A DNA stretch of 39,464 bases, from contig MEXP01000003.1 in assembly GCA_001773725.1 (NCBI GenBank), positions 26,781 to 66,244 on the forward strand. The letters are read 5' to 3'. Below, in pieces: positions 31,261-38,563 of this stretch. Under the pieces are notes generated by a model that was not told the DNA's origin, ran no database searches, and saw nothing but the letters and a program-made list of their open reading frames with translations. Position 1 is the first letter of the stretch. Every line of letters starts with the position of its first letter. The position numbers and the translations under genes were made by a program. This DNA comes from Candidatus Amesbacteria bacterium RIFCSPLOWO2_01_FULL_49_25. GTDB lineage: Bacteria; Patescibacteriota; Microgenomatia; CAZETR01; Amesbacteraceae.

Positions 31261-31761
31261 ATGCCCAAAAATTATCTCATCGGTGCCGGGATTTTGGTTG
31301 TCGTCTTAATAATTTTCGGCTTCATTTTTAAATCATCGTTCTTAAGTCGCAAATCCACCCCCACTCCAACACCCACTTTAGGCTTTGCCCAACAACTTCC
31401 AGCAGAAAAACAGCCCAAAGTCTCATTGGAATTCTCCCCAGACGCTCATTATGTCACAGTCAACATCACCAACATTTTCTCAGACCAGCTCGAATACAAC
31501 CTAATTTACGACGCCACTGTCAAAGGCAATAAGATCCAAACCGGTGTCAACGCCTCGGCTAAGCTTGACGGCAAATCCGAATATTCATATAAACAGCTTC
31601 TTGGCTCTGAATCATCCGGCAAATTTACTTATCACTCCAAGATCGAAAACGCTGTCATGGAACTAACTCTACGCGACTCTGCCAACCGCTCCATTTTCAC
31701 CGCCTCCTATCCCTTCACCGTCTCCCTGGGCGAATCCATCTCTCTTCAGCCCTCTAACTAA
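31261..31761 (+). CDS. Hypothetical membrane-anchored protein
   Basis: N-terminal TM, TPTPTPTLG linker, beta-rich extracytoplasmic domain; 4 nt after glyQS. Confidence 0.65.
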   Translation: MPKNYLIGAGILVVVLIIFGFIFKSSFLSRKSTPTPTPTLGFAQQLPAEKQPKVSLEFSPDAHYVTVNITNIFSDQLEYNLIYDATVKGNKIQTGVNASAKLDGKSEYSYKQLLGSESSGKFTYHSKIENAVMELTLRDSANRSIFTASYPFTVSLGESISLQPSN

Positions 31762-31811: not shown

Positions 31812-31840
31812 TTGACAGTCATGTGAAAACATATCATAGT
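31812..31840 (+). promoter_or_regulatory. Putative sigma70-type promoter of the dcw cluster
   Basis: TTGACA at 31812-31817, 17-nt spacer, CATAGT at 31835-31840; the -10 overlaps the first MraZ-box-like repeat. Confidence 0.5.
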
Positions 31841-31867
31841 GGTACGTAGTGGTAAAAGGTGGTAAAT
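31838..31867 (+). promoter_or_regulatory. Three tandem MraZ-box-like direct repeats, 10-bp period
   Basis: AGTGGTACGT / AGTGGTAAAA / GGTGGTAAAT immediately upstream of mraZ. Confidence 0.8.
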
Positions 31868-31875
31868 TATGAAAT

Positions 31876-32298
31876 ATGTTTATTGGCCAATATGAACACT
31901 CACTCGAAGCCAAGGGTCGCCTTTCTATACCGAAAAAATTCCGTTCCCAACTTGAAAGTGGTGCCGTCCTAAGCCAAGGTTTAGACGGCTGCTTGTTTCT
32001 CTATCCCAAAGCCGCCTGGGAACAGCTCGTTACCAAATTATCACAGTTGCCGCTTACCCACTCTGATGCTCGCGGATTTACCCGGGCGCTGTCTTACGGC
32101 GCCTCAGAGGTCGATATCGACTCTCTCGGGAGGATTTTAGTCCCGGATTATCTGCGCCAATTTGCCGGAATTACTAGCCACTGCATAGTAGCTGGTGCCA
32201 TCGATCGCATCGAGATCTGGGACAAGTCCAGATTTGCAGCCTACACCTCCCAAGTTAATTCAAAAAGAGAAGAAATAGCAGAAAAACTTGAGCTGTAA
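31876..32298 (+). CDS. mraZ: Transcriptional regulator MraZ
   Basis: MFIGQYEHSLEAKGRLSIPKKFRSQL...DGCLFLYP...ASEVDIDSLGRILVPDYLRQFAGI...IEIWDKSRF. Confidence 0.97.
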   Translation: MFIGQYEHSLEAKGRLSIPKKFRSQLESGAVLSQGLDGCLFLYPKAAWEQLVTKLSQLPLTHSDARGFTRALSYGASEVDIDSLGRILVPDYLRQFAGITSHCIVAGAIDRIEIWDKSRFAAYTSQVNSKREEIAEKLEL

Positions 32299-32301
32299 GC
32301 C

Positions 32302-33099
32302 ATGCAGAGCATGCATTACCATAACCCAGTACTTTTACAAGAAGCCGTCGCGTTTTTAGCAGTCATTCACGGATCCAAATACATTGACTGCACTCTGGGC
32401 GGTGGAGGCCATACGGCTGAAATTATTCGCCTTGGAGGAATTGTCCTCGGACTAGACCAGGATCCTGAAGCTCTCTCAGCCTGCCCTGATCTTCAGGGTC
32501 TTACCAAAGTCCGATCAAATTTTTCCCATCTTACCGAAGTGGCCGGTCGCTACGGGTTTAGTCCCGTCTCGGGCATACTTATCGACCTTGGACTTTCCCA
32601 GCACCAAATAGACTCGTCCCACAGAGGATTTTCCTTTCAAAAAAACGGGCCTCTGGACATGCGTATGGATCCAGATTTACCTCACACCGCGGCAACTTTG
32701 ATTAATCAATTATCTACAAACCAGTTAACCAGAATTTTTAAAGATTTTGGTGAAATACCAGTGGCCAAACATCTGTCTCAAAAAATTGTTTCACAAAGAC
32801 CTTTAACCACCACCCAGGATCTTCTAAAGATCGCGGGAAAGTGGTCACAGCAGGCATTTCAGGCCCTGCGCATGGCTGTCAATGACGAACTAGGCGCATT
32901 AAATTCTGTCCTACCTCAAGCGTATGAACTGCTCAGTCCCTCCGGCCGATTGGTAGTTATCAGTTTTCACTCACTTGAAGACCGGATAGTAAAAATCGAG
33001 TTCAAAAGACTCTTTGAGCAAAAGTCGGTTACTTTACTAAACCTTAAACCGCTTTTTGGGGAAAAATCGGCCAAACTTCGCGCGTATGTTAAAAACTAA
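32302..33099 (+). CDS. rsmH: 16S rRNA (cytosine(1402)-N4)-methyltransferase RsmH
   Basis: MHYHNPVLLQEAV...DCTLGGGGHTAEI...LGLDQDPEAL...GILIDLGLSQHQID...GFSFQKNGPLDMRMD...VISFHSLEDRIVK. Confidence 0.97.
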   Translation: MQSMHYHNPVLLQEAVAFLAVIHGSKYIDCTLGGGGHTAEIIRLGGIVLGLDQDPEALSACPDLQGLTKVRSNFSHLTEVAGRYGFSPVSGILIDLGLSQHQIDSSHRGFSFQKNGPLDMRMDPDLPHTAATLINQLSTNQLTRIFKDFGEIPVAKHLSQKIVSQRPLTTTQDLLKIAGKWSQQAFQALRMAVNDELGALNSVLPQAYELLSPSGRLVVISFHSLEDRIVKIEFKRLFEQKSVTLLNLKPLFGEKSAKLRAYVKN

Positions 33100-33364
33100 A
33101 CAAGTAATACTATCGTTGCTCATTCTCAATCTTCAGATTGTTGCTATCCAGTTTTTCCTCTCATCAAAGTATTCACAGTCCGGGAATCGGTTGTCGTCAA
33201 CTTCATCCAAATTAGAACAGGTAAAGTTGGAAAACCAACAGCTTAAAATGCAGGTTTATTCTCTCTCGTCGATTTCCCGAATTTACAGGTTGGCTCTGTC
33301 GTCTGGTTACCAGCCAGCAATTACTTTGACTCTGAATCCTCCTCAGGTAGCCTTGGCTCCATGA
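33086..33364 (+). CDS. ftsL: FtsL-like divisome protein
   Basis: Small single-TM protein with coiled-coil (SSKLEQVKLENQQLKMQVYSLSS) between rsmH and the ftsI-like gene; assignment mostly by synteny. Confidence 0.65.
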   Translation: MLKTKQVILSLLILNLQIVAIQFFLSSKYSQSGNRLSSTSSKLEQVKLENQQLKMQVYSLSSISRIYRLALSSGYQPAITLTLNPPQVALAP

Positions 33365-35052
33365 ATGCGAGGTATTCGTTCCTGATAATAATCTTTTGGA
33401 CTTTTGGACTGTTGATACTTGGCCGGTTATTTTATTGGCAGGTGGTCAAAGCCGACGAGTTGCAGGAACAAGCGTCTCGCCAGCAATCAACTTGGCTGGA
33501 AATTCCCAGTCCCCGGGGGGAAATATTAGCACAAGATGGTTATCCCTTGGTAACCAACGAGGACCGGTATTTACTGTACGTAAACCCCCGCCAGCTAGCA
33601 TCAAAATCAACCGTTATTGACCAAATCGCAAACTGGCTTTCCGCGTCAGACAGTGCCCGTCTTGAACTTTCGCGATCCCTGCAAACCGATCTCCTCTGGT
33701 ACGTTATTGCGCATCAAGTCTCATTCTCCGAAAAAACAGCCCTCCAAAAGCTTGATATTCCCGGACTCGGATTTGAACCTGAGCCCGGAAGAGTATATCC
33801 CGAAGGTAGTTCTAGTGCGCACATCACGGGGTTCGTAGGCAAAAATGAGTCAGGCTCATTCCTGGGTTATTTCGGGTTAGAAGGTTATTACGATCGAGAA
33901 CTTTCAGGCCATCCCGGACGGTTTTATCAGGAACACGATGCCTTCAACCGCCCAATTCTGATAGGTTCACAATTTCGTCAATCTCCCCGCCCTGGTCATA
34001 GTCTAATGACCTCCATCGACCGCACTGTTCAATTCACAATTTCCCAGGCCCTTTCAGAAGGAATCTCGCGTTATCAAGCCGAAGGAGGAACGATTACGGT
34101 CATGGACCCCAAAACCGGACTAATTTCGGGTATGGTTGCCCATCCCGGATACGACCCATCAACTTATAATGACTTCACTCAAGATCTCTACAAAAATCCA
34201 GTCATTTCGGATTCGTACGAGCCGGGAAGTATATTCAAAGTCCTTGTCATGGCTTCAGCTCTGGATGCCAAAGTTGTCAAAGCCGACACTATTTGTTCTA
34301 TTTGTACAGGTCCGGTAATCATCGGCGACGCTGCTATCAGAAGCTGGAACGACAAATATTATCCCAACTCTACCGCAAGAGATATCATTCTCCACTCCGA
34401 CAACGTGGGCATGGTTTTCGTAAGTCGGCTTTTAGGTAAGTCAAGGACACTAGACTACATTCGCCGATTCGGAATCGGCAGCAAGACCGGCATAGATCTT
34501 CAGGAAGAAGATGTAACACCCATGCGCCCCAACGATAAGTGGTATGAAATAGACTGGGCCACGACCTCATTTGGTCAGGGCATTGCCGTCACGCCCATGC
34601 AAATGGTTAGAGCCGTGGGAGCAATTGCCAATGGGGGGAAATTAGTTACTCCCAGGGTTGTAACCAAAATCCAGGGAGACGATATTAATAAAATTATCCC
34701 TCTGGATCCTCCCGCCAATATAATTTCCCCAGAATCAGCGGCCTTGATCACCCAGATGATGGTGAACGGTGTAAATAACGGAGAGGTCAGATACTACAAA
34801 CCCAAAGGCTATCTTATAGCCGGAAAAACAGGCACTGCCCAAATTCCCATATCCGGGCATTACGATCCCGACAAAGTTATTGCCTCATTTATTGGATTCG
34901 CCCCCGCAGATAATCCGAAATTTGTAATGTTAGTCACCTTAAACAACCCCAAACCCTCCCCCTGGGGCAGTACTACCGCCGCCCCATTGTGGATGTCTGT
35001 AGCCAAAAAGCTGTTTGCCTACTACAAAATTCCTTCTTCAATTCACAATTAG
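33361..35052 (+). CDS. ftsI: Class B penicillin-binding protein (FtsI/PBP2-like)
   Basis: N-terminal TM, SYEPGSIFKVLV (SxxK), HSDNVGM (SxN), AGKTGTAQ (KTG). Confidence 0.94.
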   Translation: MNARYSFLIIIFWTFGLLILGRLFYWQVVKADELQEQASRQQSTWLEIPSPRGEILAQDGYPLVTNEDRYLLYVNPRQLASKSTVIDQIANWLSASDSARLELSRSLQTDLLWYVIAHQVSFSEKTALQKLDIPGLGFEPEPGRVYPEGSSSAHITGFVGKNESGSFLGYFGLEGYYDRELSGHPGRFYQEHDAFNRPILIGSQFRQSPRPGHSLMTSIDRTVQFTISQALSEGISRYQAEGGTITVMDPKTGLISGMVAHPGYDPSTYNDFTQDLYKNPVISDSYEPGSIFKVLVMASALDAKVVKADTICSICTGPVIIGDAAIRSWNDKYYPNSTARDIILHSDNVGMVFVSRLLGKSRTLDYIRRFGIGSKTGIDLQEEDVTPMRPNDKWYEIDWATTSFGQGIAVTPMQMVRAVGAIANGGKLVTPRVVTKIQGDDINKIIPLDPPANIISPESAALITQMMVNGVNNGEVRYYKPKGYLIAGKTGTAQIPISGHYDPDKVIASFIGFAPADNPKFVMLVTLNNPKPSPWGSTTAAPLWMSVAKKLFAYYKIPSSIHN

Positions 35053-35069: not shown

Positions 35070-35426
35070 ATGATAAAACGACACACCATATCTTTTTACC
35101 ACGCATTTTCCGGTCTCGTATATTCATTCAGAACTCAGCCCAACTTCGCAGTTCATCTCTTTGTTTCCATCCTGGCGATTTTTGCAGGAGTATATTTGCG
35201 CATAAATTCATTTGAATGGTTAATAATAACCATGACAATTTTCGTCGGTTTGGTAATAGAACTAATAAATACAGCTATCGAATCAACAGTCGACTTAATT
35301 ACCAAAGAATTTCACCCCATTGCAAAAATAGCCAAAGATACATCTGCCGCGGCCATGCTCGTCTATGCTTTTGGCGCAATTATTGTCGCGTTAATGATTT
35401 TCTTACCCAAATGGCCCTATATCTAG
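35070..35426 (+). CDS. dgkA: Diacylglycerol/undecaprenol kinase
   Basis: SFYHAFSGLVYSFRTQPNFAVHLFVSI...VIELINTAIESTVDLIT...AKDTSAAAMLVYAFGAIIVALMIF. Confidence 0.95.
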   Translation: MIKRHTISFYHAFSGLVYSFRTQPNFAVHLFVSILAIFAGVYLRINSFEWLIITMTIFVGLVIELINTAIESTVDLITKEFHPIAKIAKDTSAAAMLVYAFGAIIVALMIFLPKWPYI

Positions 35427-36445
35427 GCATTCTTTTATTCTCGTTTACCATCTCCGCCATCGCCGTCGTTCCTTTCATCGACCTTCTATACCGCATCCAT
35501 TTTTTACACCAGCCCGAGCGCTCAGGTCTCACTAAAGAAGATTCAGCTGCCTCAAAAACCCTTCACCGCCTTCATCGCTGGAAGGGTGGAACGCCAGTTG
35601 GGGGCGGGATGTTGATTATTTTTTTAGTCAGCATTATTTATTTATTCTTGTTTCCCCTTCTTTCCCGCTTTGGCGTCTACATCAAATCCAGTTTTTCCAT
35701 CAAACAGGAGTTAAATGTCATCTTTTTTTCATTTATTTCCTTCGGTATTCTGGGTCTTTATGACGATCTAATCAAGATTTTTCCGCATCGGCCGCAATTT
35801 CTCCCTCTATCTTCTCGGCTCAAACGAACATTTCAGCTTGTGCTGTCTTTCATATGTTCAGTGTTGATACATCAAGGTCTGGGGGTATCTTTGCTCTACG
35901 TCCCATTCTTTGGTCCACTCCAGTTAGGATGGCTATACCCTTTAGTATCCACAATAATAATCTTCATATTTTCCACAGCCGTTGACTTTTCCGATGGCCT
36001 GGACGGACTAGCTTCAGGGTTACTGTTCATATGTTTAACGGCATTCTGGGTAGTCTCACTATCTGCTGTAGACACTCCCATATCGGTGTTCATTGCTCTT
36101 TGGCTGGGCAGCTTATTGGCTTTCTTGTACTTCAATGTATTTCCCGCTCGTCTCTGGCTGGGTAACGCCGGGTCAATCTCTTTCGGAGCCACTCTGGCAG
36201 TAATCGCCCTTATCCTTGGCAAATCGGCAGCCCTTATAGTCATCGGAGGATTGTTCCTCATGGACTATTTCAGTTCCATCCTCCAGTTTTTATCAGTAAA
36301 ATTATGGCATCATCGACTTTTTTCTATCACCCCGCTCCATCATCTATTACAAATAAGAGGCTGGCCCGAGCCCAAAATCGTAATGCGGTCTTGGCTCCTG
36401 GGCCTTATGCTTGCAGTCGCCGGACTCTGGCTTGGGCTTAAATGA
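35411..36445 (+). CDS. mraY: Phospho-N-acetylmuramoyl-pentapeptide-transferase MraY
   Basis: Polytopic; GTPVGGGMLI, LYDDLIKI, TAVDFSDGLDGLASGL, LWLGNAGSISFGATLAVIAL; start at ATG 35411 overlapping the dgkA end. Confidence 0.93.
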   Translation: MALYLGILLFSFTISAIAVVPFIDLLYRIHFLHQPERSGLTKEDSAASKTLHRLHRWKGGTPVGGGMLIIFLVSIIYLFLFPLLSRFGVYIKSSFSIKQELNVIFFSFISFGILGLYDDLIKIFPHRPQFLPLSSRLKRTFQLVLSFICSVLIHQGLGVSLLYVPFFGPLQLGWLYPLVSTIIIFIFSTAVDFSDGLDGLASGLLFICLTAFWVVSLSAVDTPISVFIALWLGSLLAFLYFNVFPARLWLGNAGSISFGATLAVIALILGKSAALIVIGGLFLMDYFSSILQFLSVKLWHHRLFSITPLHHLLQIRGWPEPKIVMRSWLLGLMLAVAGLWLGLK

Positions 36446-37506
36446 AACTCTACCATTTGATATCTCTACTAATTTTCTCCCTCAGCTGTTTCGGTCTTCT
36501 TATGGTTTCCAGCGCGTCAGTTGTAATAGCCAATCGGGATTTTGGTGATAAGTGGTATTACGCCAAGCGTCAATCACTTTGGCTGGGTTTAGGCACAATC
36601 GCCTTTCTCATCTCGGTCAGAATTCCCCTGGACTTTCTTGACAAAAATTCAACCGTCCTTTTTTTGACATCCATCGCCTTCCTAGTTCTCGTTCTCATGC
36701 CAGGCTTAGGTTCCACTCGGTGGGGAGCAAGTCGCTGGATCAACCTGGGGATATTATCTTTTCAGCCGGCAGAAGCGGCCAAACTCACCTTGTGTCTTTA
36801 CCTCTCCAGCCTATTAAAAAAACCTCACGCCAAGTTCCGAGCTTTCATTACAGTTCTAGCATCTGTATGCTTGCTGGTTGCCTTCGAACCCGACCTCGGA
36901 ACTTCCCTGGTCTTGGCCTCAATAGGCTTGTGTATTTACATTTCCACTGGAAGAAAAATGCTCTCTCTGGTAATTCCTCTGGTTCTGTCCACTGCCCTAG
37001 TTACTCTATTCATTTTGGTTTCTCCTTATCGTAGGAATCGGGTCAAAACCTTCTTCGATTTTACCCATGATCCCCTGGGAGCATCCTATCAAATTCGACA
37101 ATCACTCTTAGGGTTGGGTTCCGGAGGGATATTTGGCCGGGGATTGGGTCAATCTCGACAGAAATATGAATTCTTGCCTGAGACTCCCACAGATTCAATA
37201 TTATCGGTAATAGGGGAGGAGTTGGGTTTAGTGGGAACGGCCTCTCTAGCTATTGCCATACTTTGGCTAATAACTCTCGGATTCAAAACCGCTTCCAAAA
37301 CCTCAAATCCATTTGCTTCAAGTCTGGCTTCAGGGGTATCATCGTGGATTGGTGTCCAGTCATTTTTAAATATGGGCTCGTTAACCGCATTAGTTCCCTT
37401 AACTGGTGTCCCCTTGCCCTTCATATCCTACGGCGGTTCTTCGCTTGTGATTTTGTTGTTTTCCGCAGGCATATTAGTCAACATTGCCAAGAATCCGAAG
37501 AACTAG
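36442..37506 (+). CDS. ftsW: FtsW/RodA/SpoVE family lipid II polymerase
   Basis: LGSTRWGASRWINLGILSFQPAEAAKL, VAFEPDLGTSLVL, GASYQIRQSLLGLGSGGIFGRGLGQSRQKYEFLPETPTDSILSVIGEELGLVG, PFISYGGSSL. Confidence 0.96.
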   Translation: MKLYHLISLLIFSLSCFGLLMVSSASVVIANRDFGDKWYYAKRQSLWLGLGTIAFLISVRIPLDFLDKNSTVLFLTSIAFLVLVLMPGLGSTRWGASRWINLGILSFQPAEAAKLTLCLYLSSLLKKPHAKFRAFITVLASVCLLVAFEPDLGTSLVLASIGLCIYISTGRKMLSLVIPLVLSTALVTLFILVSPYRRNRVKTFFDFTHDPLGASYQIRQSLLGLGSGGIFGRGLGQSRQKYEFLPETPTDSILSVIGEELGLVGTASLAIAILWLITLGFKTASKTSNPFASSLASGVSSWIGVQSFLNMGSLTALVPLTGVPLPFISYGGSSLVILLFSAGILVNIAKNPKN

Positions 37507-37507
37507 T

Positions 37508-38563
37508 ATGCCAAAGCTGATTTTTACCGGGGGCCATCACACCAGCTCTTTAGAAGTTGCCTTACAACTCAAGAGCCAGGGTGTGGATGTAGTTTGGTTC
37601 GGGCACCGGCATTCACATTGGGGGGACAAATCGAATACCGCAGAATATCATGATATTACCTCTTCCGGACTAAAATTTAGGGACCTCAGGGCCGGAAAAT
37701 TTTATCGCACCTACCACCCCCTCAAACTTATCCGCATCCCGCTAGGGTTCCTTCAATCATTTTTTCTTTTACTCAGAGAGAGACCCGATGGAATTGTGTC
37801 TTTTGGGGGTTATCTTGCAGTTCCTGTCGTCATCACTGGCTGGCTTTTAGCTATCCCCAGTATCACTCATGAACAAACAGTGGCCGCCAGCTGGTCCAAC
37901 AGGCTCATTTCTTTTTTTGTCAAAAAAATTGCCCTCACTTGGCCCCAAAGCACCAAATATTACCCCGAGGGTAAAACTGCAGTCGTCGGTCTTCCCCTCA
38001 GAAAAGAAATTTTAGAAATAAGAAAAAGGCCCCAGCTGAGTAAACGCAACCACACAGTTTACGTCACCGGAGGCAAACAGGGTTCGCACATCATAAATGA
38101 AACAATCTTCTCTGCGCTATCCCAGCTTCAAAAAAAATACACAGTTATCCACCAAACCGGGAGATCCTCTTTGTTTCCAGACTATCAAAAAGCACTTTCC
38201 ATAAGTTCCCGGCGGTACATCCCCTTTGCTTATGATAATTCAAAAGGACTCGCCGCTCTAGAGAAGGCTAGTGTTGTTGTCAGCCGAGCCGGGGCTCACA
38301 TCACTTATGAACTAGCAGTCCTGGGAAAAAAGTCTGTTCTAGTTCCGATTTCTTGGGCCTCACACAACGAACAATTATTAAACGCTCAAGTTTTACATTC
38401 GGCCGGTCTCGCTGTTATCTTGCCTCAGTCGGAACTTTCTCCTGCGTCCTTACAAACGGCTATCGATCAAGCCTTACAACTTTCCGGTCAGCCCCTTGCT
38501 CTTCCTCTCGATGCCACTCAAAAATTAACTGCCCTTATTCATGAAGCCTTCAAGTTGAAATGA
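37508..38563 (+). CDS. murG: UDP-GlcNAc--lipid I GlcNAc transferase MurG (divergent)
   Basis: IVSFGGYLAVPVVITGWLLAIPSITHEQTVAASWSNR, TGGKQGSHIIN, SRAGAHITYELAVLGKKSVLVPISWASHNEQLLNA. Confidence 0.9.
   Translation: MPKLIFTGGHHTSSLEVALQLKSQGVDVVWFGHRHSHWGDKSNTAEYHDITSSGLKFRDLRAGKFYRTYHPLKLIRIPLGFLQSFFLLLRERPDGIVSFGGYLAVPVVITGWLLAIPSITHEQTVAASWSNRLISFFVKKIALTWPQSTKYYPEGKTAVVGLPLRKEILEIRKRPQLSKRNHTVYVTGGKQGSHIINETIFSALSQLQKKYTVIHQTGRSSLFPDYQKALSISSRRYIPFAYDNSKGLAALEKASVVVSRAGAHITYELAVLGKKSVLVPISWASHNEQLLNAQVLHSAGLAVILPQSELSPASLQTAIDQALQLSGQPLALPLDATQKLTALIHEAFKLK

Follow-up and report, generated by a model that had tools for sequence, protein, structure and literature searches.

The dcw operon of Candidatus Amesbacteria bacterium RIFCSPLOWO2_01_FULL_49_25 lies within a stretch of 39,464 nucleotides of contig MEXP01000003.1, here called the window, and begins with mraZ, followed in order by rsmH, ftsI, dgkA, a mraY-like gene, ftsW, and a murG-like gene (Table 1). 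The dcw cluster thus includes a diacylglycerol kinase gene, flanked by ftsI and the mraY-like gene. The mraZ product is intact, matches MraZ homologues of solved structure in the PDB (E ~1e-20), and keeps the residues that are invariant from Amesbacteria to E. coli, including K13, R15, and R86. Its nearest named relatives are found in Candidatus Amesbacteria and in a related Microgenomates genome, with 64-84% MraZ identity.

Table 1. Features of the mraZ promoter region and the dcw operon (window coordinates)
Feature	Position	Strand	Basis or remark
-35 hexamer TTGACA, mraZ/dcw promoter	31812..31817	+	TTGACA/G and 17-nt spacer in 13/13 family members
GTGAAAA element, -35/-10 spacer	31823..31829	+	12/13 family members; also rpmA/L27-parB promoters
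-10 hexamer CATAGT, 17 nt after -35	31835..31840	+	NATAGT in 13/13 family members
MraZ box 1 AGTGGTACGT (putative)	31838..31847	+	conserved phased repeat
MraZ box 2 AGTGGTAAAA (putative), ~ +1 to +10	31848..31857	+	conserved phased repeat
MraZ box 3 GGTGGTAAAT (putative), ~ +11 to +20	31858..31867	+	conserved phased repeat
mraZ, putative regulator, 140 aa, two MraZ domains	31876..32298	+	PF02381 E=2.3e-34, two stretches
rsmH (mraW), operon gene 2	32302..33099	+	PF01795 1.4e-67
ftsI, penicillin-binding protein	33361..35052	+	PF00905 4.3e-68
dgkA, diacylglycerol kinase gene	35070-35426		PF01219 6.2e-33
ftsW	36442..37506	+	PF01098 6.9e-98
murG-like glycosyltransferase	37484..38563	+	PF04101 1.3e-27, PF03033 2.6e-14

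The open reading frame preceding mraZ stops at position 31761, so that the promoter and three direct repeats with a GTGG core (31838-31867) fall within a 114-bp gap. The original prediction was of three back-to-back repeats upstream of mraZ with exact 10-bp phasing, and both the spacing (exactly 10 bp) and the positions agree with it; its further claim that the first repeat overlaps a -10 hexamer, CATAGT, situated 17 nt after TTGACA is borne out by the coordinates and by all 13 promoters of the family, the last three bases of the hexamer being the start of box 1. The numbering of the boxes up to +20 rests on a predicted transcription start at +1. The repeats had also been said to reach the mraZ translation start region, and box 3 is indeed near the ATG (31876-31878) but ends 8 nt upstream of it, without overlap. 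Two other features are present in this region: an 8-bp inverted repeat (AAACATAT/ATATGTTT) at 31827-31834 and 31874-31881, and an additional ATG 7 nt upstream of the mraZ start, which opens an 8-codon out-of-frame reading frame (31869-31895) overlapping that start. The position of this extra ATG suits the SD-like box 3, and a similar one is present in only three relatives (L032-L034).

The promoter architecture is strictly maintained in the Amesbacteria family. All 13 promoters have TTGAC(A/G), 17 nt, and NATAGT, with box 1 beginning at the AGT of the -10, and all have three exactly phased boxes (shuffled expectation 0.00), separated by GTGG-to-GTGG distances of 10 and 20. Among 37 complete boxes the GTGG core is found in every one, followed by T in 36 and then by A in all 37; box bases 8-10 and the promoter spacer are variable in the same alignment. 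The third box is weaker (AATGG) and abuts the ATG in two members (L042 and L043). When ten family genomes were searched with the strict pattern, nine gave exactly one match, each beside mraZ, and in the tenth (G001), whose third box is AATGG, the array is matched by a relaxed pattern. Another genome of the family, G010, is 99% complete with no detectable mraZ or rsmH and no box array; the first part of the dcw cluster may have been lost there. In the closest relative (L032) the -35 hexamer lies within a perfect 10-bp inverted repeat, CGCGTTGACA-AAGTA-TGTCAACGCG, located roughly 30 to 6 nt before box 1.

The array is also unique in the genome. Three successive copies of RGTGGTAN3 match the window once, with three mismatches allowed in the 27-base pattern (0 expected from 100 dinucleotide shuffles), and three copies of the looser RGTGGN5 match the whole 958-kb genome once, at the mraZ promoter, with no triple array elsewhere. 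A two-box search of the same genome finds three further places (C19, C20, and C27). The shortness of the units explains why Tandem Repeats Finder makes no call at the array and why a general repeat search recovered just two copies out of three.

Phased arrays precede mraZ in other Microgenomates, other CPR, Lachnospiraceae, Elusimicrobia, and E. coli, and the original expectation that the repeats would be conserved upstream of mraZ orthologues is therefore upheld both within the family and in other CPR and non-CPR phyla. At least three phased boxes are present in 19 of 30 other CPR sequences (shuffled 0.02) and in 42 of 61 non-CPR sequences (shuffled 0.00), the latter being mostly from Lachnospiraceae and other Clostridia and recovered in one similarity search, so that relatives of the query are over-represented among them. 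In other Microgenomates, the spacing from one GTGG to another upstream of mraZ has peaks at 10 and 20; in other CPR the peaks are at 10, 20/21, 30/31, and 40/41, as they are in the 61 non-CPR sequences. In all three sets the shuffled expectation at such spacings does not exceed about 0.5; outside the family, the peaks fit a helical repeat of 10.3-10.5 bp. In these other lineages the boxes are often 30-150 nt from the start codon. The arrangement is not universal, as a strictly 10-bp-phased RRTGG pair is absent within 180 bp of the mraZ start in 6 of 17 other Microgenomates and in 11 of 33 other mraZ-bearing CPR genomes. The pooled core is (A)AAGTGG. A lineage-specific box, RGTGGTANNN, had been proposed, and this stands in part: T and A after GTGG are preferred in the family (95% and 92%, versus 48% and 24% in the non-CPR set), whereas the AAGTGG core is general. 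On these base counts the TA is a family-level preference and not a new box.

The phased boxes co-occur with mraZ. The strict triple array was found in none of 12 genomes lacking mraZ, and in 9 of 12 mraZ-bearing genomes by the same search – a count that is not a rate, since several of the latter were picked knowing that they had arrays. Eight of the nine matches were placed at mraZ, and the ninth (G139) was counted without placement. Upstream of rsmH in seven readable mraZ-less genomes there is no phased array.

Sites of this kind have precedents. Eraso et al. (2014) reportedly described MraZ boxes upstream of E. coli mraZ, and the repeats that we read directly from the sequence there (agtgggaaattgtggggcaaagtggg) are, as in the window, of the RGTGG type, in 10-bp phase, and just after a TTGACA promoter; the E. 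coli boxes read GTGGG, however, and apparently follow a separate -10, whereas box 1 of the window is fused to its -10. In Mollicutes the MraZ site has been defined experimentally as (AAAGTGKN3)3 (Fisunov et al. 2016, as cited in PMC5282649 and PMC8475190). As the site is given in these citing papers, it shares with the window three direct repeats, 10-bp spacing, an A-rich lead, a GTG[G/T] core, and a location in the dcw promoter before mraZ, and the pooled (A)AAGTGG core equals it (PMC5282649); compared with the same quoted form, the window family differs in preferring TA after GTGG and in that the -10 takes its last three bases from box 1. A single occurrence of the motif in the M. genitalium chromosome is reported (PMC8475190), and the array is likewise single in the window genome. 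The site of the C-protein HsdC of M. gallisepticum, (GTGTTAN5)2, similarly consists of direct repeats with a GTG core overlapping a promoter (PMC5282649), but these are spaced by 11 bp and serve another regulator, and no such gene adjoins the window promoter.

We conclude that the repeats are very probably the operator through which MraZ acts on the dcw operon of this Amesbacteria-like Microgenomates (CPR) bacterium, with homologues pointing to binding and geometry to repression. By analogy, the MraZ encoded in the window most likely binds boxes 1-3, and adjacent subunits of an oligomeric MraZ would engage one AGTGG core apiece, the cores lying one helical turn apart along a single face of the DNA. 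MraZ bound in this manner would cover the region from the -10 to about +20 and exclude RNA polymerase, and occupancy would lead to negative feedback on mraZ-rsmH-ftsI-ftsW-murG. Polymerase blocking and negative feedback are expected from the fusion of box 1 to the -10 and from the location of boxes 2 and 3 over approximately +1 to +20; the mechanism draws on this placement and on work with E. coli and mycoplasmas, and none of the sources consulted reports binding by, or expression effects of, a CPR MraZ.

An operator overlapping a -10 or a transcription start normally blocks polymerase, and the boxes here lie over the -10 and downstream, across the expected start, in a promoter whose perfect TTGACA -35 gives no obvious need for an activator. 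We thus regard it as improbable that they bind MraZ as an activator or dual regulator instead of a plain repressor, although MraZ can act positively on dcw expression in Neisseria elongata, where deletion of mraZ lowers that expression and overexpression raises it (PMC9395523).

Boxes 2 and 3 are inside the predicted 5′ UTR, and box 3 of the window has an anti-SD pairing energy of -8.7 kcal/mol, as might be anticipated if the repeats worked in RNA – as a translation signal or in RNA-level control – or as a second, extended -10, and not as a DNA operator. This is very unlikely. The original suggestion that box 3 is an extended -10 (TGnTAAATT) or a degenerate SD fails in the relatives, which have TAAATC, TAAACC, or TAAAAC in place of TAAATT and pair with the anti-SD at only -3.7 to -4.1 kcal/mol; moreover, box 3 can lie as far as 9 nt from the ATG or directly abut it, the boxes of other lineages are often 30-150 nt away from the start codon, box 1 is over the -10 and hence outside the RNA, and Rfam gives no match. 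That the repeats are functionless and alike merely through close kinship is scarcely credible, for although MraZ of the closest relative is 84% identical, the aligned promoters retain AGTGGTA but differ in their spacer and flanking bases, and phyla that are unrelated show the same 10-bp arrays, which contradicts this reading.

The promoters have a further shared element in GTGAAAA, which is located 3-6 nt downstream of TTGACA in 12 of the 13 family mraZ promoters and is absent from that of the closest relative (L032). The combination TTGACA-N3-6-GTGAAAA is common to the mraZ/dcw and rpmA(L27)-parB promoters across the family (at the latter, e.g. G000:C11:6828-6843, minus strand, L172), and in Microgenomates at large it precedes rpmA (L27, often then parB), mraZ, and a greA-like gene; in 59 genomes it is several times commoner than a reversed control. 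The L27 promoters that we read contain no MraZ boxes. GTGAAAA is possibly a second operator or a clade-specific promoter element. A bolder proposal, which we make tentatively and consider rather unlikely, is that the Microgenomates dcw promoter has two inputs: in addition to the MraZ boxes joined to the -10, GTGAAAA – shared with the L27-ParB promoter and some other growth genes – would be either the site of an undescribed second factor or a clade-specific promoter element, and would co-time division, segregation, and ribosome synthesis.

Regulatory sites are almost uncharacterised in CPR bacteria, because few of these can be grown. Close relatives and distant bacteria, E. coli among them, have the same kind of site upstream of mraZ, which indicates that a switch of known type is at work in a group of bacteria that has been little studied; the system is of a kind already known and not new. 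One experimentally defined operator type can be placed by sequence across many CPR lineages, which supports the view that MraZ and its box are an old regulator-operator pair.
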